A program made the position numbers and the translations under genes. A stretch of 25,621 nt of DNA from a virus, in IMG/VR virus record IMGVR_UViG_3300029263_000131, positions 1 through 25,621 of that record; one strand, given 5' to 3'. Below are positions 1-25,621 of the stretch, in pieces (position 1 is the stretch's first letter; each line of letters starts with the position of its first letter). The notes beneath the pieces were generated by a model. That model did not search any database. It was not told where the DNA came from and saw nothing but the letters and a program-made list of their open reading frames with translations.

Positions 1-3000
1 GATATATTTTAGTCCACCTAGATATGCTATGGCACCCTGAACTGGAGATGCAGGGAAATTTTGTTCCATTGCAACAACATCTCTTGGTGTATAATCACAA
101 TATTCTGGACGAATAGGTCCACCTCTAGTAAGCATAAAAATTCTCATACCGTTACCAAATGGTTTTGTACTCATCATACCCATATAAGTTCTAATTGAAC
201 TATTTGTAGTGGTATCATTTGCAGTTGTGGTAGTATCAGATTTTTTTGTATTATGCCAGAAATATTCTCTTCTGAAATTGAGTTGTTCTCCGGCACCTGT
301 TGCAGTCACAAAGTTAGAAGAAGGAGATACGGTTTGTGTAATATTTCCCCCATTATCCAACATTACTGTTTTTAATTTAGATTGGTGTTGTCCATCCAAA
401 TCAAATTTGGTCGCAGCAGTTTTAATAATACCACCCTGAGTGGAGCTATCAGCACCAGCAATACAAATTAAATCCGCTTCGGCATCACTATAGATAAATC
501 TTTGCGATGCAAGTGGAGTTGGGAAGTTGAAAATTACTGTTTTATCTTGAGTAATAGATAACTGTTCTACTGGGTTGATACAAGCTGGACTGTCAATTTG
601 TGGTATAACAGCAGAAACATGGAAATCCCAAGGTTTAAATACATCACTTTCTCTAACAATGAACCTATAAATACCTTTAGAAACTTTATGAATATCGTTC
701 CAGATATTAGGAATGTCTCTGTCTTCTGGTACTCTAATTAGGTATGTAGATTTACCAGTATCACGTTCTTCTACATCTGAATAATTTTCATAACTGATTT
801 TCACAACTGTACCATTTTCGATAGGTTGATTAAATCTCCAAGTATCTGTGGCCAGTGAATATGCATACATTGGTATCTCAATACCAAAATATTCTAAACT
901 ACTACTTGTAGTACCGTATACAATATCACCTTCATTATCTATAGAATAATTCTGTCCTATTACAGCAGCATCAGCCTCAGATCCATCAACAAAAATTTTC
1001 AATCTGTTTACTTCAAATAGTGGATTTGAGGATGTACCAGTTCTACCATAGAAGTTAGTGTATTCGTTATTAAATCCAGCACCTTCCCAAGCATATTCAT
1101 ATATGAATTGATCGCCCTCTGGAAATGTATCGACAATGGCAGTAACTTGAATTGCTGCAATATCAGTACCACTTGCTGCGGTATTAATTCCAGCAGTACC
1201 AAGAACTTCGCCAACTTTCATATCTAAAATACCAGTTCCTGCTACTGTAATTGCGAAACTGTTATCGCCAGAAACGGCAGACTCTAGTACATATCCACTT
1301 GTAGAACCACCACTTGATGATCCAGGCAAGGGTATTAAAGTTGATTGTGCAGAAGTTGGTGCGCCGGCGTTTAAAGCTAATGTTTGGACATGTAATTTAC
1401 CAGCCGTTGCATCACCAGCAGTAATAGATGGAACCGCACCCGTATAATTTGCAATCACATCTGTAAAATAAATTACTCTTTGTCTACGACTTGCTACTAG
1501 TTGTTTTGCGGCAGCGGATGTAGGAGTAAATACTGCAACACTAGAAACAATAGGAAGTTCTCTTGCATCACCGTTAGCATTTACAGAAGCTGCTATTTCT
1601 GTTTTATTTACGATTTGTACATCTTTATTGAAAATTAAAATACTATCTGTACCAGTTGCAGATCTGTGCCTAATTCTTGATATTCTAAGTCCTAGTCCAG
1701 CTGGTCCCTGTTGTTGATTTCTTGCAAAGTTATAGTTTTGCAATCCTTTTGAATCGGCCGGTGCAGTGTAACCAGTTTTAGAAAATGTGGATGGTCCACC
1801 ATTTGTATCAACGACAGAAGAATACCTAATAGCACTATGCAATCCACTAATATAATCACCTACTGGTACAAAAGTAGAACCATATCCATTTGCAAAGTTT
1901 AATGCAAAACCCTGTCTAATAATTGCTGGAGCGGGTGCTGCAGCTGCTACATTTATAACCGGAAGACCAGTTAAGTTTGCAAGAGCAATAGTAGGATAGT
2001 TTGCTGCGTCTATTGCTGGAAATTTAAATACGTCATTAACAATAGTAAATCCAGTACTAGGATCTGTACCTAAAGATGCTGTATCTTCTAGAGGCAGTCC
2101 TATATTTGCGCCAGACGCATCTGTAGGTGTAATTGCATATGTAAGTCCACTACCATAAGCCGTTGTTCTAAGGGACGTTGGTCGAGTGTCAGTAGGTATA
2201 TTTTGCGTTATAGGCAATCCAGGCTTGAGTTTTCTACCATTGACATCATACACTTCGAGTTCGTTCAAACTCTTAGATGTGACTGTGGTTTGTCCTGTGG
2301 TTGGGTCGGTGTTTCTACTGACTTCTGCAAAATATCCAACATTGTGATCACTGGTTTCTTCTGGTCTTTTAGAAGGAGAGTATAGACAATGGACAGGAGA
2401 TTTTCCATCTTCCATTTCGACACCACCAGAAATATTATTTGCATGTCTTTGTACAATAAACCAAGCATAATCGTCATCTTGATCAACAGCGGCTTGGTCA
2501 TAAAAGAATAAAGCCGTACCATGATCTGTACAAGTGAGTCTGTAAGTCATTGGATATGCAGCTTCTACATCATCTGTAGTTTTACCTTGGCGTCTAAACC
2601 AACCAGATTTCGCTTTATTTGTGTCATTACTAAAGTTATAGTAAATTTCTGAAAGTTCGCCAGGCTGTCTGAAAACTGATTGTTTAATACCATCTCTACC
2701 CTGACCTTTAGTAATATCACCATTATCTTTTAATTGTAAAGGAGTGGCAATATTCACATAAAGATATTCATCTCTTTGGTCGTAGAAAAATCTCATTCTC
2801 CATTTTTGTGGTTTTCTTTTATCTTTTACGGGTTGAGTTAGTGTCACAGATGTGGGAAGAGCACTAGTCGCAGAATTAATATCATTCTTAGATGACATCA
2901 AGTCTGTTGCCTTTTCAGATTCTACAACAAATAAATCACCAATTCTATCAACACAATTTTTAACCTGTCTATGATTTTGTTGTCCGTTTACGCCAATATG

Positions 3001-4587
3001 AACCGGAAGGGTTGCATCTGAATTTTCATATGGATAAATTATGTTATATGGTTGTGCCTCAAACCCGCCTTTGTTTTGGCCATTGGGCAGTTTTGCGATT
3101 GATAATCTCCAAGTTCCCTCTGGATATATTAAAATACTTGAATTTGTAAAAGAATTTACTTCTTCTGTACTATTACTAGTCGCCCAATCGAGAGTTGCAA
3201 CACCATCAGTAACAGCACTAATTAAACAAGTACCGTCTTGATTTGGTTCTATAATTCTTTTGCCTACATCTCCTGCTTGAAATCCACCAGTTGCTTCTGT
3301 TAAGGAAGTACCTGAGATTGGGTCACTAAGTGTTGCAGATGTTGCAGAACCAGCAGCTACAGGAGATGCATTAAATGTAAGTGTTGCAGTTCTTTGTGGT
3401 ACTGTAGAAAATGATGTACTATAATAATTTGCATATGGGTGTAAACACAAATCTTCTGCCAGTTGTCTTAAAAAACCATTATTTGCAGTAAGATTTTTCT
3501 TTGTGTCTACAAAATACTCTAAAAGAATTGAATCTCCAACTGTAAAGGTTTCACTTCTCCATGTAACTGTACCATGATCTAGTGCAGTTTGTGCTTCGTT
3601 TGTAACAGTTTCTACTTTTAGTACAAGATCATCTTGTCCTGTGACATTGCCTATAAGGGCTTGTGGAATAGTAATCAAATCTCCAACTGCAAAACCTTGA
3701 CCAAATGTCATAGGTAAAACTTTAGTAACTTTTCCAGTTGCATCTACATATACTTGAAATCTCAGATCGGTAGTATGTACCGCTGGAGATCTTGCGGCCC
3801 CACTAGTTGTTTCACCAATAACAGGGTGATCCATTCTCGAACCCACAACAACAGAACTACTATCAGTAATAGTAATTTTATTTGTAGAATTTTGATTACA
3901 AAAATAAACACCTTCGCGTTGTTTCGCAGTTCCGCCACCAGTATGTCCACTTTGTATTGAGATACCTGTAAGAGCTCCAACACCTGTTCTGTCTGCAAGT
4001 GGAATTTTCTCATTTTTAAAAAAACTTACAAAAAATTGTCCCTCAATCATACCTTCGTCAATTGAGACTGTAGGCAAACTTCCTGATGTAGTGTTATAAT
4101 TATTACCACCGTTTAAAATTTCAGTGGATACAATTCTACCAACACCGTCAGAACGCACTGTTATATTTGCGGGAACTAAAACACCAGATGTGGGTTCTCC
4201 ACCTCTAACATTTACTGCAAAAGTTGTATTGGGAGAATAACCAAGGCCGCCATCATTTACATTAACTGCCATAATTATGCCGTCTGTATTTATAGTAGCA
4301 ATTGTAATAGTAGCCGGAGTGTTACCATTTCTAAAAGTTTGTTTTAATGGTCTTTTTACTGTTGTTACTGCCCCACCGATAAAGACTCTTTTTTGAGAAG
4401 ATAAAATGTAGGGGTCAATTCTATCAAATTCCCCCTGAGCCGGTTTGTTTAGACGAGTAAATGTTTGGTTGAACGAATTCATAAACTGAAACTTTTGTGT
4501 TTGTTTCTGTTGTTGAATCGACACCATTTCATTTCTCTGAATAGAGAAACCGCCCGATAGGAACTTCGTTTGTAGTGAAGTTGTCAT
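1..4587 (-). CDS. Large virion structural protein, paralog 3 of 3 (partial, C-terminus beyond window)
   Basis: The frame opens at ATG 4587 and stays open to the left edge: at least 1529 residues with no stop seen. The start is set by a strong AGGAGAT site at 4594-4600 and by alignment with paralog 2 (LSGGFSIQRNEMVS at residues 10-23). Visible parts: beta-rich N-terminal region with short repeats such as GGLGYSPNTTF; FLRQLAEDLCLHPY near residue 390; KPQKWRMRFFYDQ near 610; core 678-741 (YPMTYRLTCTDHG, DQAAVDQDDDYAW, SPVHCLYSPSKR); C-terminal module from 1309 (FIVRESDVFKPWDFHVSA, INPVEQLSITQDK, FGNGMRIFML). Between core and C-terminal module lie about 567 residues, mostly Thr/Ser/Ala/Gly-rich beta-type sequence. 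It continues at least 40 residues past GNGMRIF, farther than paralog 2. No catalytic motif or membrane segment was seen. Role: structural virion protein, inferred from context; exact location in the particle is unknown. Confidence 0.85.
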   Translation of the reverse strand, partial: MTTSLQTKFLSGGFSIQRNEMVSIQQQKQTQKFQFMNSFNQTFTRLNKPAQGEFDRIDPYILSSQKRVFIGGAVTTVKRPLKQTFRNGNTPATITIATINTDGIIMAVNVNDGGLGYSPNTTFAVNVRGGEPTSGVLVPANITVRSDGVGRIVSTEILNGGNNYNTTSGSLPTVSIDEGMIEGQFFVSFFKNEKIPLADRTGVGALTGISIQSGHTGGGTAKQREGVYFCNQNSTNKITITDSSSVVVGSRMDHPVIGETTSGAARSPAVHTTDLRFQVYVDATGKVTKVLPMTFGQGFAVGDLITIPQALIGNVTGQDDLVLKVETVTNEAQTALDHGTVTWRSETFTVGDSILLEYFVDTKKNLTANNGFLRQLAEDLCLHPYANYYSTSFSTVPQRTATLTFNASPVAAGSATSATLSDPISGTSLTEATGGFQAGDVGKRIIEPNQDGTCLISAVTDGVATLDWATSNSTEEVNSFTNSSILIYPEGTWRLSIAKLPNGQNKGGFEAQPYNIIYPYENSDATLPVHIGVNGQQNHRQVKNCVDRIGDLFVVESEKATDLMSSKNDINSATSALPTSVTLTQPVKDKRKPQKWRMRFFYDQRDEYLYVNIATPLQLKDNGDITKGQGRDGIKQSVFRQPGELSEIYYNFSNDTNKAKSGWFRRQGKTTDDVEAAYPMTYRLTCTDHGTALFFYDQAAVDQDDDYAWFIVQRHANNISGGVEMEDGKSPVHCLYSPSKRPEETSDHNVGYFAEVSRNTDPTTGQTTVTSKSLNELEVYDVNGRKLKPGLPITQNIPTDTRPTSLRTTAYGSGLTYAITPTDASGANIGLPLEDTASLGTDPSTGFTIVNDVFKFPAIDAANYPTIALANLTGLPVINVAAAAPAPAIIRQGFALNFANGYGSTFVPVGDYISGLHSAIRYSSVVDTNGGPSTFSKTGYTAPADSKGLQNYNFARNQQQGPAGLGLRISRIRHRSATGTDSILIFNKDVQIVNKTEIAASVNANGDARELPIVSSVAVFTPTSAAAKQLVASRRQRVIYFTDVIANYTGAVPSITAGDATAGKLHVQTLALNAGAPTSAQSTLIPLPGSSSGGSTSGYVLESAVSGDNSFAITVAGTGILDMKVGEVLGTAGINTAASGTDIAAIQVTAIVDTFPEGDQFIYEYAWEGAGFNNEYTNFYGRTGTSSNPLFEVNRLKIFVDGSEADAAVIGQNYSIDNEGDIVYGTTSSSLEYFGIEIPMYAYSLATDTWRFNQPIENGTVVKISYENYSDVEERDTGKSTYLIRVPEDRDIPNIWNDIHKVSKGIYRFIVRESDVFKPWDFHVSAVIPQIDSPACINPVEQLSITQDKTVIFNFPTPLASQRFIYSDAEADLICIAGADSSTQGGIIKTAATKFDLDGQHQSKLKTVMLDNGGNITQTVSPSSNFVTATGAGEQLNFRREYFWHNTKKSDTTTTANDTTTNSSIRTYMGMMSTKPFGNGMRIFMLTRGGPIRPEYCDYTPRDVVAMEQNFPASPVQGAIAYLGGLKYI

Positions 4588-4615
4588 TTATTGATCTCCT
4601 AATTAACTTTCTTAT

Positions 4616-4623
4616 TATTTATA
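4616..4623 (-). promoter_or_regulatory. T4-type late promoter for paralog 3
   Basis: The minus strand reads TATAAATA, the exact T4 late -10-like octamer recognised by the phage gp55 sigma factor with gp33 and the gp45 clamp. It sits in the 56-base gap between the stop of paralog 2 and the ATG at 4587, leaving room for a leader of roughly 20 bases that holds the AGGAGAT ribosome site. The promoter of paralog 2 has the same 36-base octamer-to-ATG layout. Confidence 0.75.
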
Positions 4624-4643
4624 CCACAAACTTCTTAATAGAA

Positions 4644-7600
4644 TTAAGTTGCAGGGACGGCAGTCGCAGGCGTTGCATCACTAAATCTAATACTAGATCC
4701 AGTAACTTGCATAAAGATACGCATTCCGTTACCATTAGGTAATGTCGCGGCCATACCCTCATACTTTCTTGCATTTTTTCTCCAAATATAAACTTCTGCA
4801 TCTGGTCCAGTGTGGCCACCATATGCAAATCTTTCAAGAGTGTTTGTCGAAGTAGTCATATCAGTACCGGCATCGGTTGTATTTGCACTTGCAGCAACAG
4901 CAGTAATAGCTGCTGTAGATACAGTTGCAGCACCACTGTTTTTACCGTCTGAGTCCGTGTATTTGTTGATTTCAACATATCCAGCTTGTGTAGAGAAGTC
5001 AGCAGAAGAAACACAAATCAAATCCAATTCACTTTCTGGATAGTAGAATCTCTGCGATGTCAACTGAGTTGGGAAGGAAAATACAAAATTTCTCCCTTGG
5101 GTAATAGACAACTGTTCTTGAGGATTGATAATTGCATGTGAATCAATTTCATGCATAGTGGCAGAAACATGATAATCCCATGGCTTCATCACATCTTTTT
5201 CTCTAACAACAAATCTATTAATTGTTTTAACTTCATTCATATTTGTTTCTGGGAAGTTTCTATCTTCTGGTATAGAAATAATATACGATTCCTGAGATGG
5301 GTTTGAAGTTTGATAGTTAATCATTCTAATAGAGAATGTGGCACCTGATCTCGGCGCAAGTTTGAAATACAGAGACTTATTCCAGAAATCATACATGTAA
5401 ACATTTCTATTACCAGTATCCGTCCAAATTACATCGCCAGGCAATTTTTGATTGAGTGGGGCATCATTTGAAGATGATACCAACATGCCAGTCGTGAGGG
5501 CAAAAGTTGGAGCAGTTACATTTGCACCGGCCGCAGCACCAGTATTATATTCTGAGAAGAATTTTCTACCAGTTGTACGGTTATTTGTAGAAATTGAAAG
5601 TGTATGGTCAGTACCAGCACCAGCTGTGGGTGTTGGGTCCATTCCAGGCACCAAAGTATTCATCAATGGAACAGTAGATGCGTCAAGATTTGGAATTTTA
5701 AAACTTGATCCCAATGTAGTAACACCGGCAGCTTCTAATGATTCTAAAAATCTAGGAACTGTGGTGGGGTCTCCACGGCGAGTCCATTCATCATATGTGA
5801 GGATATAAGCACCAGAATCTCTTGGAACTTCGATATCGTCTAAAGACACAATCATAGATTCAAATACTTTAGTGATATTTTCTGGTTGTGCAGTATAGAG
5901 AATATCCAATAGTGCAGCATCACCTTCTTTATAATCCGACAGATTAATATTTTCAACAGAACTAGGAACCCCAGTACCCGATGCAGAAGAATCTTTAAAG
6001 GTAGACATTCTTTGTAAAATATTTGTAGGCCATACTACGTTTGCGGAAAACTGTGCTGTAATATCAGATGTTTCCAAGAATGTAGCAGAAGGTGGTGTGT
6101 TTGCAGAAGTCATTGGATCGCCGGCCGTGCCAGGAACTGTTCCTGTTGCGTCCATGAAATTACCAGTTTCTGTGATTGCGCGAATAAATGGAGCGTTTGT
6201 AACTCCACCAATTACATATGCTGGTTTCTGTTGAATCGCGCCAGGCGCATTAGATGCGGATAGAGCAATTGAAGTATTTCTTCTTCTTGGTAGTGAGTTA
6301 AATCCTGTCACTGCGAGATCGGTGACTACTGCGTCAGCACCAGATGTATTTACACCAGAAGATTTGTTAGCTGGAATTAGTGTCTTACACATACCATTAA
6401 CAATTGGAGGCGAATCTAAGAATATATTAGACATGACAGTATTATTGTGATACGCCCAACCCGTTGTAACATCACCAGTACCACTAGAACCTTGAAATAA
6501 AGTAAATGCTGTACCAGAACCATCAATCTCCATTGCACTTAAATCTTGTGGAGATGAAAGTACCAACTTACCAGAACTACTGTTCCAAGATTTAATTTTA
6601 CCACCCCATGTTGGAGTAGTATTATTGTCTGCAACAAACATACCAACTTGGAAATTTGGAGTTGTCGAACCAGTTGGGGGTGTTGCACCCGCACCAGCAG
6701 CACTACCAGTAAAACTGGCCGCATCAGAAATATCAATGAAAAGTGTATATGTCGTTTGTCTCCAATATGTACTACTGTCCGAAGTATAGTTACCTGTCAT
6801 ACCTCTAAACAAGTCTACTTTTAAATCTGTTTGTGCAAGATTAGAACCACTAACAACGCCAGGTACACCAGCGGCGTAACCATAACCATTAAAGTCAATA
6901 GCATTGATTCTACCATTAAAGAATGACGCATCATTACTAATGTAAACAGTTGGTCCTTCTGTAGTACGAACACCACCTAGAGCACTTGAAATTGAAGAAG
7001 GTTTAGACAAATCATCCATATCTTTAGTTGAATAATAAGGAGTGAGTGATGCAAGATCGACTGTACGTTTAGACGGCGAGTATACACAATGTACTGGTGA
7101 TTTATCACCAAATTCTGGTTCACCTGTTGTCTGGTTTACGTGTCTCTGTACAACTAACCATGCGTAGTCATCATCTTGATCAACTGCGGCTTGGTCAAAT
7201 ACAAATAATGCGATACCATGATCGGTACAAGTAAATTTATATGACATTGGATATGAAAGAGCATCTTCATCTTCCATTTGTGATTTTTTAAACCACTGTT
7301 GTTTTGCGCGACTTATCTTGAGTTTAGAACCTCTACCGATAGCAGGGGTTTGATAAACGTCACATAATTCACCAGCTTCTCTGAATACTGGGGATTTTAT
7401 ACCATCTCTACCAGCTGGGGCAGAAATTGTCATATCATCTCTTAGTTGATAACTAGTCGCAACATTGACTTTCAATGTATAAGAAGTATCATCCCATTGG
7501 AATCTCATTCTCCATTTTTGCGGTTTTCTAGTACTTGCAGGACTATTACTTGCAAGAGTCATGTTACTGTCTGAAAGTAAGTCTGCGCCTTTATCTGATT

Positions 7601-9212
7601 CTACCAAGAATTTATCAGTAATAGTTCTAAGAGCAATTTTGATATCTTCTTTTGTATTACTAGTCGGTGCCGGATAAATCAGTTTAAATGGTGTCATAAA
7701 TTCTGCATTTGTAGCCATTTCAACCATCATCAAATCTTGAGAAGCAATCTTTGCAGTGTTTTGGTGACGAGGAGATGTTGTTGGAATAACAGTTGCATTT
7801 CCTAGTCCTACAATTGCATCTGCATCATCTGCCTGAGCAGTAATAATTGCAGCAGTAGAACCATCGGTTGCAGCTGCCCAACCAACAAAACCAGATCCAG
7901 TAACAGTTGGGTTTCCGGATGGTGTAACAAATGCACCAGCCGCACCTGTTGTCAGGCCACTTCTAAATGGGCGACTATAATACCATAAATCTGCACTAGC
8001 AGTATGTTCTTTAGGAAATGCAGTATTTCCAGAATTGATTGAACCACTATATTGATCTGGTCCTAAACCAGTTTTACCAACTAATGCACCATATGGAACA
8101 TCTATAGATTTGCCCCAGACATAAGAAACTGTAATATTTACGGCAGCAAGATTTTCTACCCAATTCATAGCTTCTGTTCTTTGGAGTTTGAAGGTAGACT
8201 TTCTAGTTGCAACATCCGAAGATACTACAAAGTCATCTGGTGCTAGTTGTTTGCCATCAATAGCAATTCTGAATCTACCAGTTCCTAGATCATTTTCAAC
8301 TAGTGGGAAATCATCCATAATAGTGACATATGTTGAAACGGTGCCAGCAGTAATAGCACTAAATGCCAATGACGTACCAGCGGCAATTACTGCATCATTT
8401 GCAGAAGTTGCTACGCCGGTGGCCATATTAATGATTGATGTTTCTCTATGTTCGCGAACAACTTTCCACAATGCACTAGCAGTTCTTTGTGTTGCGGCAG
8501 AACCATCATCATTATACATGTCTACATAACTAGCGGCAAGTTTATTTTCATACAATGTCACAGCGCCTGCGGTGTCAAGAGTTTGAGCCATTCCTGTTGT
8601 ATCTAAATCACAAGTAAGTTCTGAACCAGCAGCACCAGAAGCAGTAGTATCATGTGTTGCAAATCCGGCAAATGTTGCTTGAAATAATTCTGGGCCTTCG
8701 TATGGGTGAATACACATATCGTGAGCCAGTTGAAATAGAAGTCCGCCATCACTACCAGTAAAATTATCTTTATGTTCTGTGTATTTGATTTCTACTTTTT
8801 CGCCAGGCATTGGTTGCGCTGTTGCAGTAAATTCAATCGCACCATATAGGCCTCTGTCTGAACGATATCTTACAGAACCAAATCCAGCATCTACAGAACC
8901 TTCTGTATAATCGTTTGCATTCCATGCAGCACCTTCTGTGGCATGAATTCCTGTAGGTCCAACACCTGTCGCGGTAGTGTTGTAAATGTTTATAGCATCT
9001 GCGCCAGTGTTGGCTCCTAATTTTCTATCTAGGTGAAGTCTTACTTCTCCCATTCTGATATCCCAATTCCAATCTTTATCTGTAAAGTCTGGCTTTGATC
9101 TCAAAATATAGATGCTATCTCCCGAAACCGCATCGTGTGTTTCGTATTGTGTCCTGTGGGGCACATTTATAACGTCATTTCGTTGAATGCTAAATCCGCT
9201 GGCAATAGACAT
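4644..9212 (-). CDS. Large virion structural protein, paralog 2 of 3 (1522 residues)
   Basis: Complete gene, ATG 9212 to TAA, with AGGAGAT at 9218-9224. Layout: N-terminal GFSIQRNDVINVP (residues 7-19); LLFQLAHDMCIHPYEG near 175; KPQKWRMRFQWDD near 565; conserved core 654-716 (YPMSYKFTCTDHG, DQAAVDQDDDYAW, SPVHCVYSPSKR); about 617 residues of Ser/Thr/Gly/Ala-rich sequence; SIPEDRNFPE; then the C-terminal module from 1334 (FVVREKDVMKPWDYHVSA, INPQEQLSITQG, PTQLTSQRFYYPESELDLIC, NGNGMRIFM). It ends only about 25 residues after GNGMRIF. The core is close to paralog 3 and clearly related to, but further from, the 784-residue paralog. No signal peptide, membrane segment or enzyme motif was seen. 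Its place in a late structural cluster makes it a probable virion protein (baseplate periphery or fibre); function is not assignable from sequence. Confidence 0.9.
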   Translation of the reverse strand: MSIASGFSIQRNDVINVPHRTQYETHDAVSGDSIYILRSKPDFTDKDWNWDIRMGEVRLHLDRKLGANTGADAINIYNTTATGVGPTGIHATEGAAWNANDYTEGSVDAGFGSVRYRSDRGLYGAIEFTATAQPMPGEKVEIKYTEHKDNFTGSDGGLLFQLAHDMCIHPYEGPELFQATFAGFATHDTTASGAAGSELTCDLDTTGMAQTLDTAGAVTLYENKLAASYVDMYNDDGSAATQRTASALWKVVREHRETSIINMATGVATSANDAVIAAGTSLAFSAITAGTVSTYVTIMDDFPLVENDLGTGRFRIAIDGKQLAPDDFVVSSDVATRKSTFKLQRTEAMNWVENLAAVNITVSYVWGKSIDVPYGALVGKTGLGPDQYSGSINSGNTAFPKEHTASADLWYYSRPFRSGLTTGAAGAFVTPSGNPTVTGSGFVGWAAATDGSTAAIITAQADDADAIVGLGNATVIPTTSPRHQNTAKIASQDLMMVEMATNAEFMTPFKLIYPAPTSNTKEDIKIALRTITDKFLVESDKGADLLSDSNMTLASNSPASTRKPQKWRMRFQWDDTSYTLKVNVATSYQLRDDMTISAPAGRDGIKSPVFREAGELCDVYQTPAIGRGSKLKISRAKQQWFKKSQMEDEDALSYPMSYKFTCTDHGIALFVFDQAAVDQDDDYAWLVVQRHVNQTTGEPEFGDKSPVHCVYSPSKRTVDLASLTPYYSTKDMDDLSKPSSISSALGGVRTTEGPTVYISNDASFFNGRINAIDFNGYGYAAGVPGVVSGSNLAQTDLKVDLFRGMTGNYTSDSSTYWRQTTYTLFIDISDAASFTGSAAGAGATPPTGSTTPNFQVGMFVADNNTTPTWGGKIKSWNSSSGKLVLSSPQDLSAMEIDGSGTAFTLFQGSSGTGDVTTGWAYHNNTVMSNIFLDSPPIVNGMCKTLIPANKSSGVNTSGADAVVTDLAVTGFNSLPRRRNTSIALSASNAPGAIQQKPAYVIGGVTNAPFIRAITETGNFMDATGTVPGTAGDPMTSANTPPSATFLETSDITAQFSANVVWPTNILQRMSTFKDSSASGTGVPSSVENINLSDYKEGDAALLDILYTAQPENITKVFESMIVSLDDIEVPRDSGAYILTYDEWTRRGDPTTVPRFLESLEAAGVTTLGSSFKIPNLDASTVPLMNTLVPGMDPTPTAGAGTDHTLSISTNNRTTGRKFFSEYNTGAAAGANVTAPTFALTTGMLVSSSNDAPLNQKLPGDVIWTDTGNRNVYMYDFWNKSLYFKLAPRSGATFSIRMINYQTSNPSQESYIISIPEDRNFPETNMNEVKTINRFVVREKDVMKPWDYHVSATMHEIDSHAIINPQEQLSITQGRNFVFSFPTQLTSQRFYYPESELDLICVSSADFSTQAGYVEINKYTDSDGKNSGAATVSTAAITAVAASANTTDAGTDMTTSTNTLERFAYGGHTGPDAEVYIWRKNARKYEGMAATLPNGNGMRIFMQVTGSSIRFSDATPATAVPAT

Positions 9213-9240
9213 TAAATATCTCCTATTTGGTTTTTACTTA

Positions 9241-9248
9241 TATTTATA
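9241..9248 (-). promoter_or_regulatory. T4-type late promoter for paralog 2
   Basis: Exact TATAAATA on the minus strand in the 67-base gap between the 784- and 1522-residue genes. Octamer start to ATG is 36 bases, and the leader carries AGGAGAT. The placement just ahead of an ORF, repeated at 4616-4623, supports a real late promoter rather than chance in AT-rich DNA. Confidence 0.75.
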
Positions 9249-9279
9249 AAAAAGAATCTGTGTAATCTCAAAAAATTTA

Positions 9280-11634
9280 TCATACTGTACCAACTGCATC
9301 ATTAGTGTCAAGCATAACATCGCTATTGAAAATATATTGACTATTAACCAAAACCATTATCCGCATACCATTTCCGTATGCAGCAGTAGATCTCATTCCT
9401 TGATATCGTCTTTTGTCAGTATTAGTTCCATCATATTTATAGGTTGTCATAGGAATATTACTTGATTCTGCGACAACTTCAGCTGAAGAAAAACAAATTA
9501 AATCCATTTCTTCTTTCGGATACATAAATCTTTGTGTAGTTAATCCAGTTGGAAATGTTATGACAAATCTGTTTTCATCAGTAATTGCCAGTTGTTCCAA
9601 TGGATTTATAATTGCGTTACTATCTATTTGATGGCGAGTTGCAAATTTATGCACATCTTGTGGTTTTAGAATATCAAATTCTCTTACAACAAATCGCCAA
9701 ATATTTTTTGCAGAAAATTCATCTGCTAGATAGTCCTCTCTATCATGTGGACTCATAATATAAAAGGTTTTATTATTTGCGATTGTGGAAAGGTTGTATG
9801 TATTTCCTAAAGTATCGTAAACAGTATCTACAGTAGTTTCTGCCGTTTGTAAATTAGCTGCACTAGTAGAATAATATACACCCAAATCACTACTATATGT
9901 TGTTTCTCTTGAACACGAATACATGCAATGGACAGGAAATTTAGAAGATTCGTCAATTCTAGGCATTCCCGATTCATTATTAACAGTTCTTTGGATATTA
10001 AACCATGCATAATCATCTGCTTGATCTGCGGCCGCATCATCATGGAGGTAAAATAAAATACCTCTTTCAGTCATCGTCAATCTATAGGAGAAAGGATATG
10101 CACCAGAAAGATTTGAATTTGTCTTTGGAAATCTTTTAAACCAACCACAACCTTTTCTTTTATTTCTAAATCTAATAGAACGATTGTTAATATATTTTGT
10201 AAATCCTAAAGATCCCGCCGGTACAGTGGACGATGATGTAGTAGATCCATTGCTTGGCATATAAAATGTCGCAGAAGGAAATTGTGTAAATGTATGAAGT
10301 GTAGACGTTCCAACACCACCAGTTACTGTACCACCAGTAGTGAATGCTGTATAATTCGTACCATCTACAGGATCTCCCAAACTAGAATTGGAATATATTT
10401 GAAATTCATTCGAGTCAACAACATTTACATAGTAAACTCCGTCTGTCAACTCAGACATACCACCAACTCCAGCAACAGAAACTGGTTGTCTGTTGACATA
10501 TCCGTGATTTGCAGCAGTTATTTTTACTGGATTGGCCTGTGTTACCGCACTAATGTTTTGGGCCGTGCCACCACCAATCGCCGCACTATATTGATTGGCC
10601 ATAGTTTGATCTAAAAATATTGGGAAAAAGTGCTGTTGACTTGATCCATACGTTTGAGTATTTGTATGATTAGCATAAGTAAAATATGGCCCAGTATTTG
10701 AAGGGTCGGCAGTAATTGTAACATCTTCAAAATGCAAATCTACCATTTCGCCTGGCATTCGCATCACAGTAGTATCCAGTGTAGACCCATTCGCTAAAGT
10801 AATAAGACCATCAGTATTTAATTGTGGCTTTGTAACTGTACCGTTTGGTAATATTTGACTAGAACACCCAGCACTAACTTTCAACCAACCATAACAAGGA
10901 TTTGGAATACCTTGCGTAGTTTCCCATCCCGCTGTGTTTGCACTTCCGGCAGCAGTAAATCCAGACGCCCCCAAAGTTGCATCTAAAGTATATCCAATAT
11001 CATAACTACTAGGTTTATATAAAGATTCTTTTATAGTTGAACCAGCCTTATATTCTGGAAATCCAGCTGACTTCATTCTTAGATTTAATTGATATAATTC
11101 ATCTGGAAATTCTCTATCACCTTTATCTGTCGGTGGATACCAATAGAGTCTAGGTCTTAGATCAAACTCAAAACGCAATCTATAATTTTGGTCGAGACCT
11201 CTAGAAACAGCACCTGATTTTGGTAGACTTGCATCTGTAGTCTTAAAAACTAAAACATGTTGTTGGTTAATTGCACCTGTAACTTGTCCTGTAGATGTAT
11301 CGGGCATTTCTGTAAAATTGGCAGTTCCTGCATATGGAGTTGCAGTACCAAACTGTGGTCTATCTAAAGAAATTTGAGTAAAAAATTGTTTAGTGATTGG
11401 TGGAGTTGCTGCGTCACTACTATCTAATAATTCGTTTCCAGCTACCGCATCTCCATTGTACATCGACCAAGTTCTAGCTAAATCCTCTGCAAGAATTCCT
11501 AGCATTCCAGCGCCAGCAGGAACACCACCGTCACTATCAATTGCTCCAGCGCCTTCTACGGTTGTAAATCCGTTTCTCTGACGTGACATTCCATAATTTG
11601 TAAATGACGCAGGGTTTACTAGTCTAGTTGCCAT
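9280..11634 (-). CDS. Virion structural protein, short paralog 1 of 3, with FCCH-like insert (784 residues)
   Basis: ATG 11634 to TGA. The start overlaps the end of the 237-residue gene by 11 bases and has GAGGATC at 11642-11648, so the two are probably translationally coupled. N-terminus carries YGMSRQRNGFTTVEG, the diverged form of the GFSIQRN motif. LGILAEDLARTWSMYNGD lies near residue 45. At about 358-440 is a beta module (ISAVTQANPVKITAANHGYV, VAGVGGMSELTDGVYYVNVV, GTNYTAFTTGG) resembling the FCCH-type domains often annotated in phage proteins; the long paralogs lack it. Core 513-576 (YPFSYRLTMTERG, DDAAADQADDYAW, FPVHCMYSCSRE). Only 71 residues separate core and C-terminal module (648 on: FVVREFDILKPQDVHKFA, INPLEQLAIT, GNGMRIMVLV), against 567-617 in the long paralogs. 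Probable virion protein; specific role unknown. Confidence 0.9.
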   Translation of the reverse strand: MATRLVNPASFTNYGMSRQRNGFTTVEGAGAIDSDGGVPAGAGMLGILAEDLARTWSMYNGDAVAGNELLDSSDAATPPITKQFFTQISLDRPQFGTATPYAGTANFTEMPDTSTGQVTGAINQQHVLVFKTTDASLPKSGAVSRGLDQNYRLRFEFDLRPRLYWYPPTDKGDREFPDELYQLNLRMKSAGFPEYKAGSTIKESLYKPSSYDIGYTLDATLGASGFTAAGSANTAGWETTQGIPNPCYGWLKVSAGCSSQILPNGTVTKPQLNTDGLITLANGSTLDTTVMRMPGEMVDLHFEDVTITADPSNTGPYFTYANHTNTQTYGSSQQHFFPIFLDQTMANQYSAAIGGGTAQNISAVTQANPVKITAANHGYVNRQPVSVAGVGGMSELTDGVYYVNVVDSNEFQIYSNSSLGDPVDGTNYTAFTTGGTVTGGVGTSTLHTFTQFPSATFYMPSNGSTTSSSTVPAGSLGFTKYINNRSIRFRNKRKGCGWFKRFPKTNSNLSGAYPFSYRLTMTERGILFYLHDDAAADQADDYAWFNIQRTVNNESGMPRIDESSKFPVHCMYSCSRETTYSSDLGVYYSTSAANLQTAETTVDTVYDTLGNTYNLSTIANNKTFYIMSPHDREDYLADEFSAKNIWRFVVREFDILKPQDVHKFATRHQIDSNAIINPLEQLAITDENRFVITFPTGLTTQRFMYPKEEMDLICFSSAEVVAESSNIPMTTYKYDGTNTDKRRYQGMRSTAAYGNGMRIMVLVNSQYIFNSDVMLDTNDAVGTV

Positions 11635-12337: not shown

Positions 12338-12358
12338 GAATATTTCCTCTTTATTCTC

Positions 12359-12366
12359 TATTTATT
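12359..12366 (-). promoter_or_regulatory. Possible late promoter (7/8 match) for the 237/784-residue gene pair
   Basis: The minus strand reads AATAAATA in the 30-base gap between the 1198-residue gene and ATG 12337, about 21 bases upstream of the ATG. It differs from the T4 octamer only at the first base, and marine T4-like phages are reported, as I recall, to accept any base there (NATAAATA). The short spacing would give a leader of only about 5-15 bases containing AGAGGA, which makes this weaker than the two exact copies downstream. Confidence 0.45.
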
Positions 12367-12367
12367 C

Positions 12368-15300
12368 TCAAAAAACAGTATGTGATCCAGAACTACTATA
12401 TGTTATTCCTTGAATGACTGCAACGCCACCACTCCCAGCACTACCAGCTGTGTTTCCACTACCGCCGGCCGGCGTTCCGCCCTCTGGGCCACTAGCTCTT
12501 CCCCATGCAGAAGCACCACTACCACCATGACCGCCTGCGGGATACGATTGACTGTCACGCCCCCACTGAGCGGCGGGGTTGGTTTGTCCAGCGCCGCCAC
12601 CAGCAGATGATGTGCAACCTACACCGCCACAGATTGAAGATGTACCAGAACCGCCACCGTTTGGTTGACCACCAATAACAGAGGCAGTAATTCCACCGGA
12701 CATTGACGAACCTACGCCGGAGCCACCAGTACCACCACCGCCAACACCACCAGCACCAAGAGTAAACGATATGACAGTCCCGACATCTAACTGTGCAGTT
12801 CCCTTAGACATTTGTCCAGCACCACCACCATTACCACTGGTCGAGTAGCCCTGATATGGACTACCATTTGCTCCGGAACCAGATCCACCGTTACCGCCAG
12901 CACCACCACCAGTTAGAGAATACTTGACTTGAATCATATTTCGTTCAACCTGTCCATACACAGTACCCCCCAAATCATTTAATGTGAGTTTTTGTCCAGA
13001 TGTTGCTGCGCCGCCAACACCGCCTAAGTAGTTGTCGGCGTGACCGCCACTAGATGCCCAGCCGCCACCGCCACCCATTTTAGCGTAACTCTGCCCAGCT
13101 TGTTGGCCCTGTCCACCCGCTTTTGCAGTGGCTTGACGGACATCACCACCGCCAGTTTCGTATTGGATCGTCAGACTACCAGTAAAAACGCCCGGCAGGC
13201 CGGCGCCACCAGCCTGAGCGCCTCTTTTATCATCATCACTGGTGTTGCGCCAAAAACCGCTATGTCCACCAGCATGCGCAGCACCGGATGCCTGATAGAT
13301 ACGCTGACCTGCGCCACCACCGCCAGTGGAACCATTTTTGATACCGCCGCCACCGCCACCACCAGCAATCCAACCAGTAGAATAATTATTAATTATCACA
13401 GAACCAGTAGATTGATTCTCAATTGCATCTCCGCCATCGTGACCAAATCGCCTATTACTGGGCGATGCACTTGCGGGCCTTGCTCCGTAGCCACCTAGAC
13501 CAATAATTTTTCCATAATTATTAATAGTGATTGATACGTCTGATAATGCTTCGGGGATCAAAAAACTGGATAGTCCTTTGGTCTCTCCTGGCCTGTCGTC
13601 TTGCCCAACGGCGCCATGTCTTTCGTTATACCCATATGCAATACCATGCACAAATATATTTTCATTAACTCTCACAGAAATATTTTGTTTTTTGGAAGCT
13701 GTCCACCCTGCAAACTGTGCATGTTCTAATAGGTTATATCCAGCTGCATTAGACGCAACAATTAGGTTTATGAAATCTGGAACTACTGGTAGTATTGGTA
13801 ATTCAATCGAACCACTAAATCTAGTCTTATCATTGAGTACATAAAATCCACCAGTACACATACCAGAAATTTTTGTTCCAAGATCTCCATCAGCTAATAC
13901 AGAAGAACTAGAGGAAGCAAAATTACTTCCTGTACCGTCTTCTAAAACATGTTCTGTACCATTTTTTACCCAAGAATATAGTTCTCTAGTTGAATTACCA
14001 TCAAATATTGTACTAGTAAGTCCACTAGTGTCGAGCTCATAAACTTCTTGTTGAGCAATTACATGTTCTTGCGTACCAGCATTAGGACCCAATGTAATAG
14101 ATTTCGGAGATTTTCCGATCCACCCTTCTGGCGATGTACTTTCTATCAAATTAAATTTCGCAGTGTTTGCATGTACAGTATCAGTTCCTTTAGTTGTAAC
14201 AAATACTACATTACATTTGGGAATTGCCCAATTGTTCTGCGTTTCTTCATCTACACTAGACCAATTCGCTGGATTGCCAGTAACTTCTTCAATATCAGAA
14301 CCGCCGTCTGGTTCTATATAAAGAGATTGTGGTATTGGATTTGTGGTAAGTACTTCCGCAATTCCTTTGACAGTTACAAATTTATCACCAATATGACAAA
14401 ATCTATTTTTTAGTTCCAAATCACCATTTTTACTGATTCTAGAACTGAATCTAAGAAAATATTTTCTAGGGGCAGTTCTAGTGCCACCCAGAACTTTTAC
14501 TGTAGTTTCTGAAGTTGTTGAATTCTGAAACGTATCAATTCCCTTAACAGAAGTGGCAGCACTATAAGATTTTGCAATAACAAGACCCTCTGAGTCTTCT
14601 AATATCCAACCAGAGTGTGTCATTGTGGAAAAGTAATTTCCATAAGATCCCCACAATTCGACTCTACCTTCTCCGCCTTCAGAACTTGCTGAATATGATT
14701 GATAAGTACTATTACCTAACGTATTCCATTCATTAAAAGTTTCTATAGCCTGCTGACCACCTCGGCCGGCCTTGATATGAATAATATCGCCAGGGGAAGT
14801 TTCAAAATCTCCCAGATATGCAGTCATTGCTCCATCACCACCATCGGTTGTAGTAAAACTAATATCTTTTCCTCTACCACCGTGTTGTCCGGCATTTCCA
14901 CCAGCACCAGCTGGTACTTGTTGATTTCCAATATAATTCGTAGATAAGGCATCCCGCGCAGCATAACTGCCTGGTATCGGAATTTCTACATGTGGAGAAG
15001 AACCAATACCATAGATAGAATCTCCACCCTTACCACCAATAGCTATTGCAGAATGTATCTTTCCAATGCGTTGGTCATCTCTATAGACAATATTAATAGG
15101 GACTCCATTATTTGCAAAAGATATTTCATTATTTATTAACGAACTAATGCCAGAGGAATATGCAACTTCTTCTGGTGTATTTCTAAAGGAGAGTATCTGA
15201 GTAGTTTTTATACCACCAGTAACTTGAATATCTTTCATATCGCTGGGTGATATGAAAGGGGATCCATCTACCCCACCACCCTTACCGCCAGGCACAGTGA

Positions 15301-15964
15301 CAGAAAATCCATCAGACCAGACAGATGTTTCTTCGCCATCCATGCCACGATCTATAGTCGCAGTAAGTGTTTTATTTTTGAGATCTGCGTTACTGAAAGT
15401 AGTTTTTGCAGTTGAACCTGCGCCGCCGCCAGCAGTCGCAACAATACGCAATCTTTTCATTCTTTTAGGAACAGTTAGTTTCCATGTCCCAGCTGGGAAA
15501 AATTCGGCCCCATCCTGCTTTGCGTAGTTTTTATATAATCTTTCATACTTGGTGTCTTCGCCTAGAACAGTACCAGTTTCAATTGTCAATGCTGGAATAG
15601 TTATTTCATTATATGCGTGATAACATAAAATTTCTATAGACCCTAGTGTATTATTTCTACCGACATATTCTTTTGGATTGTCTTGTAAATCATCCCAACC
15701 ATTATTTTCTCTAGTGAAATTATGAAAGTAATCAGTACATAGTTCTGGAATTTGCCACTTATATTGGTCTTGTACTCCCGCTCCATAAAAATTGGACCAT
15801 TTTATTGGTCCTGTTGTTGGAATTTTTGCATTTCCCTGATTATTTGGAACATTTGCACCACCCCTATAATATTCAGAAATTTTATGTGGAGAAGAATTAT
15901 TATTTGGAAAAAAATTAACAACTATCTCAGATGTTGATATTTTTCCTTTTTTTGTAATCGCCAT
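12368..15964 (-). CDS. Glycine-rich tail fibre / receptor-binding adhesin (1198 residues)
   Basis: ATG 15964 to TGA. Parts in order: N-terminal domain 1-65 ending IPTTGPIKWSNFYGAG, a motif seen in phage fibre proteins; a first glycine-rich beta domain about 150-440, opening PAGTWKLTVPKRMKRLRIVA and closing GGEGRVELWG, as in Gly-rich beta-sandwich families; a mixed region 450-730; then from about 730 a tip module like the C-terminus of many gpJ-type tail proteins (AAGYNLLEHAQFAGW, VSITINNYGKIIGLGGYG, VIINNYSTGWIAGGGGGG). The last 350 residues are extremely Gly-rich, probably poly-glycine-II type packing as in T4-like gp38 adhesins, and end SGGVAVIQGITYSSSGSHTVF minus further domains. Predicted role: host receptor recognition at a fibre or tail tip. 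The ribosome site is weak (AGAAAG about 13 bases upstream) and no late promoter precedes it, so it is likely expressed from upstream with gene 15985-17151, 20 bases away. Confidence 0.88.
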   Translation of the reverse strand: MAITKKGKISTSEIVVNFFPNNNSSPHKISEYYRGGANVPNNQGNAKIPTTGPIKWSNFYGAGVQDQYKWQIPELCTDYFHNFTRENNGWDDLQDNPKEYVGRNNTLGSIEILCYHAYNEITIPALTIETGTVLGEDTKYERLYKNYAKQDGAEFFPAGTWKLTVPKRMKRLRIVATAGGGAGSTAKTTFSNADLKNKTLTATIDRGMDGEETSVWSDGFSVTVPGGKGGGVDGSPFISPSDMKDIQVTGGIKTTQILSFRNTPEEVAYSSGISSLINNEISFANNGVPINIVYRDDQRIGKIHSAIAIGGKGGDSIYGIGSSPHVEIPIPGSYAARDALSTNYIGNQQVPAGAGGNAGQHGGRGKDISFTTTDGGDGAMTAYLGDFETSPGDIIHIKAGRGGQQAIETFNEWNTLGNSTYQSYSASSEGGEGRVELWGSYGNYFSTMTHSGWILEDSEGLVIAKSYSAATSVKGIDTFQNSTTSETTVKVLGGTRTAPRKYFLRFSSRISKNGDLELKNRFCHIGDKFVTVKGIAEVLTTNPIPQSLYIEPDGGSDIEEVTGNPANWSSVDEETQNNWAIPKCNVVFVTTKGTDTVHANTAKFNLIESTSPEGWIGKSPKSITLGPNAGTQEHVIAQQEVYELDTSGLTSTIFDGNSTRELYSWVKNGTEHVLEDGTGSNFASSSSSVLADGDLGTKISGMCTGGFYVLNDKTRFSGSIELPILPVVPDFINLIVASNAAGYNLLEHAQFAGWTASKKQNISVRVNENIFVHGIAYGYNERHGAVGQDDRPGETKGLSSFLIPEALSDVSITINNYGKIIGLGGYGARPASASPSNRRFGHDGGDAIENQSTGSVIINNYSTGWIAGGGGGGGIKNGSTGGGGAGQRIYQASGAAHAGGHSGFWRNTSDDDKRGAQAGGAGLPGVFTGSLTIQYETGGGDVRQATAKAGGQGQQAGQSYAKMGGGGGWASSGGHADNYLGGVGGAATSGQKLTLNDLGGTVYGQVERNMIQVKYSLTGGGAGGNGGSGSGANGSPYQGYSTSGNGGGAGQMSKGTAQLDVGTVISFTLGAGGVGGGGTGGSGVGSSMSGGITASVIGGQPNGGGSGTSSICGGVGCTSSAGGGAGQTNPAAQWGRDSQSYPAGGHGGSGASAWGRASGPEGGTPAGGSGNTAGSAGSGGVAVIQGITYSSSGSHTVF
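12371..13549 (-). other. Poly-glycine receptor-tip region of the adhesin gene
   Basis: Codes for residues 806-1198 of the adhesin. The plus strand is dominated by ccacc/gccgcc runs that are Gly codons on the minus strand, so this stretch is visibly more GC-rich than its neighbours. Blocks of 5 to 8 glycines alternate with short variable loops (for example SGAAHAGGHSGFWRN, HADNYLGG, GSPYQGYSTSG), the loop-and-sheet pattern expected of a poly-glycine-II tip, where loops would carry specificity. Two cysteines in ICGGVGC sit close together near residue 1112-1117. Confidence 0.7.
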
Positions 15965-17361: not shown

Positions 17362-20300
17362 TTAACTCGCAAGCGCTATAATTCTTAAATCTTTTATCAA
17401 AGGAATAATAGAAGAATTTTTAGTAGTCATTACAATTTTTACAGAGACAGATGTAAATTCTGGCAAATCTCTTACATCAAAATCATATTCCCTAAATTCA
17501 AGTTCTATTTTAGAGGCATTTTCATACACAGTTGGTCTAACCATTAAACTGTATGGTAGTTCTGAAAATTCTTGATCTTCTGATGTTTTAATTCTATAAT
17601 AAAAATCTACATCACAACCTATTTGTCTACAAACTCCGGCGATAACACGCAATGACGAAGAAGCCTGATCTAGTGTGACTTCTCTTGTCATATACTTAGT
17701 TGCGGCCGATCCGCCAGAAGCAGAAAGTTCTGAGACAAAACCAGTATTTACGTGTCCTACATTTCCTCTTACAATATCAATAGGTGAATTTGTTTTATTT
17801 GAAATAAGAATTGCACTCATTCTTTCTGTATCAATAACAGGAGAAAGATTTGAATTGTCCGAAGATAGTCCAATTTTAAACACCAATGATTTTTTATCTA
17901 ATTGATTTGCAGTGGTATTGAAAAGTTTTTCATTAAATTCTGTTGCAATCATTCTAGGAGCATTATATTTAATATTCTCATTTGGAACAAATCCAGTGTA
18001 TGTAGGATCTTTGATGCCCGGAATTTTTGAGCTATCCTGAGAAGTACCAGATAATCCTCTATAAAGAAAAGTTAAATCTGTTTTAGGCAATTCAATACTT
18101 TGGATTGTAGGTTTCATTAAGTCATATTTAAAATTGGCCCTATATTGTGGAGAATATATTGAATTACTTTTAAGAGTATATAAATTAGTTGCAGATGGCA
18201 AATCAGTAGCGGTATAGGCAGTACTAGGAGCATCAGAACCAGTAGGATAAAATTGTCCACGCATGTCGATTGTAAAACTATTATAAGTCGTGTCTGTTAC
18301 CAAGTGACTCCCATTTAACGATCCGTGTGGGAAAGTGTCATAAGTTCCAAATATATTAGAAAGAGTAACATAATTATAACCATTTGCTTCCCATAATACT
18401 GTAGGAACACAACCACTAGAATCTGGAACAAAAAATGTAACTTTTGATGAATCAGCGGTAAGTTTCATTGAATTGGGAGAAAATTCTTCCGACCAACTAT
18501 CATTTTTCGCATCGTCATATTCAGAATTTTCGATATAAACATTAGAAGTAGATTGTGTTGCGAAAGAAGCTTTTGATACTCTAAATTTTAAATCTTCCAT
18601 TTGATCTGCTGTCCAAGTAGAAGCATTCTGAGATTTGAAGAAAACTCCAGCATGTGGTTGTTTAGAAATAACTCCAGATCCGTCAAGAGCCTCTTGCCCC
18701 ATTCTAGAAATATGACATCTATATCCTTGGGTGTCTGCCATAATAACAATACAATATTCTTGCTGATGTTTTACAAATACCGGAGAAGGAAATACAAATG
18801 ATGTTGGTAAATTTCCTGTTTCAGAAGTTTTTACATCTTTTGGATATACACGTTTCTGTGCCAAAATTCTAGGGCCAGGATATCCATTCACTGTTTCTCT
18901 AAGTTGACAAGTAACAGGTTTTACTGCATCTTTTGTCGAGAAGAATAATTCTACAGCGGTAATAAATGCACCGTCTTTTGAATCAATCATAATAGTCTGT
19001 GCGAGTGGGTCATACCAACCACTTGAAGCAAATGGTTGACCTTCAATTGAAAAGTTATTACCACTTATTGCCTCAGAGCCTGAAACGCTGCGGGTTGAAA
19101 ATTCTGGAACTCTTGTCAAAACAATCTGGTCTTGAACAGTTTCAATGATACCTCTAGCAGTATAGGTCGTTTCGGTCTGAGTATCAGCCCCACTACCATT
19201 TGCAATTTGGTCTGTCAATCTAAATACTCTTTCACCAGTTTTAAATCTTATATTTGAAGTATCGGGAATTGTGAAAATTCCAGTAATAAATCCAGAACTA
19301 TCCGCCATCAAAGATGTGGTACTTCCTGCAACTTTTGCTGTTGAGTATGTTCCAACATTTTTTTCGACAAACCCAGCAGGATTTGAAGGATTGGGCCATC
19401 TAGCGATTAATTGTTCACCAGATTGGAACCCTGCACTATATATCACAGGGGCAGCAGCATGTCTAGTCTGAGTTTCTGTATTACCATATTGATTGAAGTG
19501 AAGTTTCAAGCTTGTATTACTAATAAATTCTACATCATATAAAGTACATTTAAATCCACTTGTAGCACCTACCAGTTCCAGTTTACCTCTATTATCAACA
19601 ACATTTGCAATCAAACCACTTTCTGTTCTATCAGATGAAACTCTGATCGGTGTATCTGTTGTTGTTAATTTTGCTGTTGTATTACAAAACTCCGAAACAC
19701 CAACACCATCAAAAAACGCATACAATGTAGTGTTGGGTTTCATTCCCTCAGCACTGAAATATACATCTCTAGAGCGAATATAAGGAATTACCTCTGTGTT
19801 CAATACTCTGGTTCCGACATTTTGTGTTCTATCTTTAGGTGATACAATTTCTTGTATTCCTGTTCTATCTCTTGTACCAGTTTTAGTATAGCTAATATTA
19901 GTTCTACTCAATTGCCGAATATTGCCAGCATGGCCCGCTGCCCAACCGCCACCTTGATGACCAGCACCTACTGTACTGCGACTGATTTCACTTTGGCCAG
20001 TCCAATTCTTTTCCCAAGAATTCCATGTTGTTCCCATGATACCATTTTCTGGAATAACACCAGATTTTATTAAATTATCATAATCACCTCTATTGTCTGT
20101 TACAATATCGGGGGCCTGTTTTGTGTTTTTCCAATCGTCACTTGATGGAAACAGTGAAAGCGAACCTCTAAATGAGAAAATTGCAAATGGATTCACGTTA
20201 ATAGTTTTAGAAGATGCCTCTTGTGTGATAAAATATTTACTTGTATATGGCAAATAAACTTTACCATCTTTCAATGCATATCCACTAGAAGCCCTGGCAT

Positions 20301-24365: not shown

Positions 24366-25621
24366 TTAAAATTCAAAGACTACTTTGATATCTTCGATTT
24401 GGTCGATAGCGCGTGATACTGGTTGTCTATTTTCTGTATACAGAACTTTACCAGAACCAGTTTCCACATCAAATGTAGTTTCATCAGAAGTACCAAAATC
24501 TGGATGTTGTGGTCCTCTATAAGATTCTTCAGTTGAAGGATCTAACGTAGTTTTTTCTAGTGGATCTGCTAGAATCGCAATCTGTCGGAATACTGATTGT
24601 GTGCCAGATACAGGGAATACAACTTTGGTAGTGGATACTGGTGAGGATGCAGAATTGAGTCTAGTGGATTGTTCGTCATACTCAAGCTTCATTGCAATCA
24701 TAATATAATAACCACCCATTTCTTCTACAGCATCCCAACCATGTCCCTTTTCTGGGGAAATAATAGGTTTTACTTTGACTGCATTAACATTTGGATTTCC
24801 GCCAGATAATGCAGGGAGATCATTTGTGGACACTGTTGCATTATCTACATTTGTCCAACTCGATCCCTCATCAGAAATTTGAAACTTGGAAATTTTGCCA
24901 CTGGCACCACCATTTTCTACAATACCATATGCCTTAAATCCTGTACCATTACCAGAAATTGTTATACCGGGCGCAATGATAAAACTTTGTGCAGCTGCAG
25001 CGGAAATAGTTCCGTTTAATGTTGCGGTTGCAGTTGTTCCAGAAACCGCCCAATTAGTGATTTCAAACTGTTGCATCGGACTAGATGATGTATTGATAAG
25101 GTGATATCCCTTATAGGCCTGATTAGTTACATTTTCAATAGTTGGAATAGAGATAGTTGTAGAACCATCGAAAGTAAATCCAGATCTCAAAATATTAGGT
25201 AAATATCCAATACCACCCGCCACGGCTCCACCAGTTTCATTTGGTAGAATCTTAACATGTTTAATTTTACCAATAGTTGCAGCAGGACCACCAGCAGCAG
25301 TCTGAACTGCCCATTGAATATCCTCTGCTGTCGAACCACCAGCATTTGGGTCATACATGATAGTATCAATAGGAATATAGTCTTTGGTTAAAAACTTCAA
25401 AGATTTTGTTAGAGCGATAGAATACATATACTTCCAAATATATCCATCACTAGTTGTTTCCATAATAGTTGTGGAAGTAGTCGATGGTTTGACAGTCGAT
25501 GCAACTTGTACTACGGTATCAGTATCGTTTGTGTACAGCATGTTGTTGATACACTTATATACGTTGTATTGATTGTTGCCCTCTGTAATTACATAAGAAT
25601 TTGGAATAATTTCTTCTCCCC
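24366..25621 (-). CDS. 8: Baseplate wedge protein, T4 gp8-like (partial, N-terminus beyond window)
   Basis: The open frame continues upstream of the internal ATG at 25541 to the window edge (IIPNSYVITEGNNQYNVYKC precedes that Met), so 25541 is not the start; 417 residues are visible. Recognisable gp8 features of marine T4-like phages: YVIT…YNVYKCINN, then SDGYIWKYMYSIALTKSLKFL and KDYIPIDTI; middle region KGHGWDAVEEMGGYYIMIAM; and the ending GKVLYTENRQPVSRAIDQIE followed by DIKVVFEF, a highly typical gp8 C-terminus. In T4, gp8 is a dimer in each baseplate wedge that connects with gp10, gp7 and gp6. The TAA is 26 bases from the DUF4815 gene, suggesting one transcript. Assignment rests on remembered family motifs, not a search. 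Confidence 0.8.
   Translation of the reverse strand, partial: GEEIIPNSYVITEGNNQYNVYKCINNMLYTNDTDTVVQVASTVKPSTTSTTIMETTSDGYIWKYMYSIALTKSLKFLTKDYIPIDTIMYDPNAGGSTAEDIQWAVQTAAGGPAATIGKIKHVKILPNETGGAVAGGIGYLPNILRSGFTFDGSTTISIPTIENVTNQAYKGYHLINTSSSPMQQFEITNWAVSGTTATATLNGTISAAAAQSFIIAPGITISGNGTGFKAYGIVENGGASGKISKFQISDEGSSWTNVDNATVSTNDLPALSGGNPNVNAVKVKPIISPEKGHGWDAVEEMGGYYIMIAMKLEYDEQSTRLNSASSPVSTTKVVFPVSGTQSVFRQIAILADPLEKTTLDPSTEESYRGPQHPDFGTSDETTFDVETGSGKVLYTENRQPVSRAIDQIEDIKVVFEF

Follow-up and report, generated by a model that had tools for sequence, protein, structure and literature searches.

Members of a protein family filed in PHROG 12249 under the name 'tail sheath' occur in jumbo phages such as Y3 (gp151/gp152), PaBG (RefSeq gp225), Lu11 (gp246/gp247) and Atu_ph07, many of them in tandem. 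In Bacillus phage G, whose tail carries helical fibres or a coiled outer structure, the adjacent and mutually related genes gp371, gp372 and gp373 (PHROG 9130) form three tandem paralogs, and gp371 is a virion structural protein in RefSeq. In an archaeal system, SH1 VP3 has been described as almost certainly the globular unit that is repeated in the horns, and the spike protein VP3 of Haloarcula hispanica virus PH1 is a close homolog. We analysed a cassette of three genes, here called A, B and C, in the IMG/VR virus record IMGVR_UViG_3300029263_000131 (positions 1 to 25,621; this 25.6 kb stretch is the window). Every main gene of the window lies on the minus strand. The cassette is composed as follows, with lengths in amino acids (aa); core blocks were placed by hidden Markov model (HMM) matches, family-wide for the middle block of A, and by motif coordinates.

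9280..11634, minus strand: paralog A (P0003), open reading frame (ORF) of 784 aa, family core with modest insertions (PHROG 12249, E=3.7e-50)
10324..10515, minus strand: small inserted domain of A, E1_FCCH-like but below the Pfam cut-off; overlaps a match to PHROG 584 major tail protein and has weak UBA6 fold matches
9895..10197, minus strand: A core block 'mid', residues 480-580, DQADDYAW...PVHCMYS
9283..9777, minus strand: A core block 'cterm', residues 620-784, VRE...INPLEQL...GNGMRI
4644..9212, minus strand: paralog B (P0002), ORF of 1522 aa in which an insertion of ~590 aa divides the core (PHROG 12249, E=4e-43; the core matches in separate pieces)
7065..7544, minus strand: B core block 'mid', residues 557-716
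5250..7064, minus strand: B variable insertion between the core halves, residues 717-1321, placed by motif positions; the equivalent part is a change hot spot in some relatives
4662..5249, minus strand: B core block 'cterm', residues 1322-1517
1..4587, minus strand: paralog C (P0001), ORF of at least 1529 aa in which an insertion of ~540 aa divides the core (PHROG 12249, E=2.1e-35)
2344..2838, minus strand: C core block 'mid', residues 584-748
703..2343, minus strand: C variable insertion between the core halves, residues 749-1295, placed by motif positions and variation profiles of relatives
103..702, minus strand: C core block 'cterm', residues 1296-1495

The three ORFs agree in place and length with an earlier sequence-only reading of this DNA. 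BLASTP aligned B with C in two blocks (E=1e-46 and 1e-41), A with B at E=4e-30 and 3e-14, and A with C at 2e-23 and 1e-17. A profile search placed all three in the same PHROG, 12249 (E 2e-35 to 4e-50). On these comparisons A, B and C are paralogs, with similarity well above chance. A search of the three against Pfam gave nothing above the cut-off and no match to a sheath family or to PF07880. The shared motifs named earlier were real and others were added, so that eight blocks were found in identical order in the three proteins: GFSIQRN, LAEDL, QKWRMRF (YRLRFEFD at this position in A), DQDDDYAW, PVHC.YS, VRE, INP.EQL and GNGMRI. The core blocks are co-ordered within one chain in each of A, B and C, as in the members of PHROG 12249. 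The parts described earlier as two conserved ends and a 64-residue centre are indeed conserved, but they belong to a single colinear core of ~350 residues, interrupted by insertions of unequal length at common points. One shared point separates the first strand from the helix, a second separates the helix from the WRMRF strand and a third separates the core halves; a further, short insertion lies near the C-terminus in B and C. The insertion between the core halves comprises ~40 residues in A, 590 in B and 540 in C, and B and C also have long extra N-terminal segments. The ORF of C is open at the window edge, with its stop codon outside the window. Judged by its orthologs P0001 is nearly complete, because those from five loci stop shortly past a common ...TPRD motif; the C orthologs of the L020 group have a longer C-terminal tail.

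Scanning viral contigs by protein and by alignment detected relatives at 43 distinct loci, several of them near-identical across samples. In about 30 loci A, B and C could all be read and stood in unbroken order; the remaining loci end at a contig edge before that point. A subgroup (L043-L048, L051 and L052) carries an additional family copy of up to 3398 aa between A and B. In two of these loci (L044:12329-22525 and L045:12311-22339) the extra copy has about 3340-3400 aa, and its core is C-terminal after ~3,000 further residues. A divergent fourth paralog, D, matching the PHROG 12249 profile at E=1.4e-37, was present in six of the seven contigs searched whole and lay ~8-12 kb past the end of C where measured. 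It is outside the cassette at G001:101390-107386, G002:193353-197300 and G003:10716-14756, and has a P0006-like gene close by, no more than a few genes away. In one contig a 1062-aa gene stands between C and D (L071:15788-18976, minus strand); phages of Caulobacter and Brevundimonas hold relatives of it (PHROG 8578, unknown function). For the cassette family, scanning a single genome for each of 84,980 bacterial and archaeal species confirmed no relative.

In the topology of the core tree, with the jumbo-phage copies as outgroup, A, B, C, D and the extra copy each fall into a clade of their own. A recent duplication of A, B and C was considered and dropped, as every copy position forms its own clade in the relatives. 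Because each copy has its own orthologous group there, the three are not recent duplicates; according to the tree the copies are old, and the duplications predate the whole marine group. The idea of one protein duplicated and then rebuilt by insertions is supported, and at least one more paralog (D) lies outside the window. We read the kept order together with the clade per position as co-retention of probably distinct roles.

The family was also found in Erwinia, Dickeya, Pseudomonas and other jumbo phages by tblastn and the alignment scan. A, B and C resemble these proteins in sequence family and core blocks. The jumbo-phage copies are mostly 300-460 aa with adjacent core halves, single or in tandem arrays of up to six, and their neighbour genes are unlike those of the window. 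In contrast, the marine T4-like copies range from about 580 to 3400 aa, with large insertions and N-terminal segments, and belong to another operon. The family thus has a database name, where the sequence-only reading had known none, but the name looks wrong. Separate true sheath genes (PF04984 or PHROG 23) were found in three T4-like contigs and in five of the six jumbo-phage contigs; the lack of a sheath match in the remaining contigs may reflect incompleteness or divergence. In one T4-like contig a match to PHROG 23 confirmed the sheath, and genes for tube, gp13, gp14 and gp15 lie nearby. The Y3 and NCTB records have a separate annotated sheath gene, and the sheath proteins of PaBG are gp213 and gp76, not gp261 (PMC7412058). 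The sheath label fails because the carrier genomes encode separate sheaths and because the fold model described below matches no solved sheath. Family members bear the product name 'tail sheath' in RefSeq records such as NC_047880, NC_022096 and NC_017972 and are hypothetical proteins in the matching GenBank records; the name in such records appears to be a propagated annotation.

Evidence that the family is found in virions comes from PaBG. Its gp261, of unknown function, is among the 14 Coomassie-visible proteins of CsCl-purified virions and corresponds to band 10, with a mass of 34,778.16 Da (PMC7412058 Table 1). Translated from its second methionine, the family member of PaBG has a calculated mass of 34,777.74 Da. 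The gene numbering was anchored by the nearby genes gp257 and gp263, whose calculated masses fit other bands (57,162.2 versus 57,162.97 and 18,908.2 versus 18,908.47). The identity of the family member with gp261 is our own match by mass and position rather than a sequence printed in the paper. This mass match to published proteomics supports a virion protein family, as had been proposed for the three genes.

Structure prediction, also suggested as a check, was informative for a small family member. The core model of a 346-aa jumbo-phage member, built from a 78-sequence alignment, had a predicted local distance difference test score (pLDDT) of 93.8 and a predicted template modelling score (pTM) of 0.93; it describes one compact, mostly beta fold. 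When this model was searched against the PDB, no match at E<=0.001 was obtained and no sheath was among the 50 matches listed. The full P0003 model retrieved nothing usable from the PDB, with weak matches to UBA6, and PDB sequence searches with P0003 and with the jumbo-phage alignment gave nothing convincing. Outside the family, matches in BFVD included phage G gp371, Xanthomonas phage FoX4, PH1 VP3 and others (E 1e-5 to 1e-3). The unnamed BFVD entries A7KUT2-A7KUT4, presumably from phage 0305phi8-36, carry no weight in the readings below.

Among these matches, the predicted fold of phage G gp371 matches the core at a Foldseek E of 2.3e-5. The phage G proteins differ from A, B and C in their length of 280-290 aa and in having no large insertions and no sequence-profile support: profile comparisons of the family with gp371-373 and with BpSp gp133 were not significant. 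The predicted model of PH1 VP3 matches the core at E=1.7e-4 (prob 1.00, template modelling (TM) score 0.46-0.47). PH1 and SH1 are archaeal, tailless viruses, unlike this phage, and no sequence similarity was found.

Variation was followed in identity profiles of five close pairs, with the ratio of nonsynonymous (dN) to synonymous (dS) substitution rates for part of the sets and identity profiles alone for the last ones. A orthologs were 92-99% identical across close pairs. Between L020 and L021, the B insert had 61% amino acid identity and a dS of 1.30 versus 97% and 0.25 in the core; this difference in dS suggests that the segment was replaced by recombination. In L024 and L040 the B and C inserts were 91% and 87% identical versus 99% in the cores. 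The fibre gene next to the cassette had comparable hot spots in close pairs. The expected conserved core with variable inserts was thus observed in several pairs but not uniformly: A was nearly invariant, and it was B and C that carried variable inserts.

With about even confidence, we favour the reading that a single virion protein family has given rise to A, B and C as specialised copies, which form part of a surface appendage associated with the tail; their core would assemble and their inserts would face outward. The ~350-residue core would be the assembling unit, and the three proteins probably occur together in a hetero-oligomeric appendage at the tail or baseplate periphery. Since A is conserved and its insertions are the smallest, it is probably the scaffold. 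In B and C, the inserts (about 540-600 residues) and the N-terminal segments probably project outward and touch the host surface or its glycans.

Several observations weigh against this reading. The virion evidence is from PaBG and not from the marine group, none of whose members is in the phage collection searched. The model of full P0003 was poor (pLDDT 58.7), and no solved structure matches. For phage G and PH1, the link is a Foldseek match of one predicted model to another (E 2e-5 and 2e-4, TM 0.46-0.60), and sequence profiles do not confirm the link to phage G. As regards variation, pairs other than L020/L021 and L024/L040 have a contrast between insert and core that is weaker, absent or elsewhere: the B insert of L009/L014 is as conserved as the core, and B of L029/L049 varies most in its N-terminal part. 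The dN/dS ratios cover part of the sets.

In gene order, T4 gp8 and the DUF4815/VrlC protein come first in the window. They are followed by a small protein with a match to phrog_473, a protein of 388 aa, the probable adhesin rich in glycine, a protein of 237 aa and finally A-B-C. The DUF4815 protein is a marker of the T4-like late operon. The larger neighbours are:

24366..25619, minus strand: P0009, T4 gp8 baseplate wedge subunit (Pfam PF09215, PHROG 438), 5' end outside the window
17362..24339, minus strand: P0008, 2325 aa, DUF4815 / 'VrlC' structural protein (Pfam PF16075, 3.6e-48; VrlC of Kyanoviridae; solved relative 9euf, E=6.5e-42)
12368..15964, minus strand: P0005, 1198 aa, glycine-rich, probable host-recognition fibre or adhesin upstream of the cassette (weak similarity to the GP38 adhesin of Pfam and to the tail fibre family PHROG 2056)

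The GC content is 51% at window positions 12001-13500, in the glycine-rich C-terminal part of P0005, and 34-40% elsewhere. P0004 (11624-12337) is a separate gene here, and a similar domain is fused into a much longer fibre protein in L012:5612-9997 and L020:4288-9972.

A more specific form of the favoured reading, possible but doubtful, is that the core units are stacked as beads into long polymeric filaments, that is, tail hairs or curly fibres. The family occurs in Y3, Lu11, JA and AD1, phages reported as hairy, and the fold match to phage G gp371 agrees with this. The curly-fibre candidates 0305phi8-36 ORF129 and the related BpSp gp133 (PMC4870245) have a motif pattern near the central strand similar to that of the family, and gp133 matches phrog_9130 at E=1.7e-4. 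However, ORF129-like proteins align to the family marginally (hhalign P=0.02), the phage searches returned no record of the Rak2-like hairy lineage, and the publications consulted on hairy phages had not identified the hair genes.

It is rather unlikely that the copies are peripheral wedge proteins arranged in a ring as a baseplate skirt, with inserts that are structural and not host-facing. The cassette comes after gp8, the DUF4815 protein and the fibre gene in the late operon, and in the large T4-like contig G001 it sits between baseplate genes and gp13-gp15. A search for PF07880 (T4 gp9/gp10) gave no match in two large contigs, and control genomes likewise gave no signal. Against a skirt, the jumbo-phage copies adjoin quite different genes, some inserts vary in an adhesin-like manner, and one PaBG copy is Coomassie-visible, though a dozen copies per virion might also show.

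Decoration of the capsid, in which the proteins would coat the head, appears improbable. The PHROGs that contain phage G gp371-372 and BpSp gp133 are assigned to head and packaging, as virion structural proteins, but in our reading this category looks like a catch-all for virion proteins of no assigned place, and the family is located amid tail and fibre genes in T4-like and jumbo phages. Finally, a second contractile sheath protein is extremely improbable. In its favour are the PHROG and RefSeq names and the two sheath proteins of some of these phages; against it are the separate sheath genes, the different PaBG sheath proteins, a confident core model without a sheath match and copy sizes from about 300 to 3400 aa.

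Beyond the appendage reading of A, B and C, we tentatively propose a wider one, itself on the doubtful side: that a misnamed, widespread family with a bead-like core builds tail appendages of large phages by tandem duplication. In marine T4-like phages, three or four co-assembling subunits would then serve as scaffold and display, with display domains exchanged by recombination. In this wider reading, the helical fibres of phage G and the horns of SH1 may rest on the same fold.

The results correct a database name spread over many jumbo-phage records and link a marine cassette that had no name to a virion protein known from published proteomics. They also offer a testable candidate for tail appendages that lack known genes. 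If phage G and SH1 do share this fold, one unit would be a surface bead in both bacterial and archaeal viruses. The division into scaffold and display would locate a store of host-facing variation in an uncultured group of marine phages.

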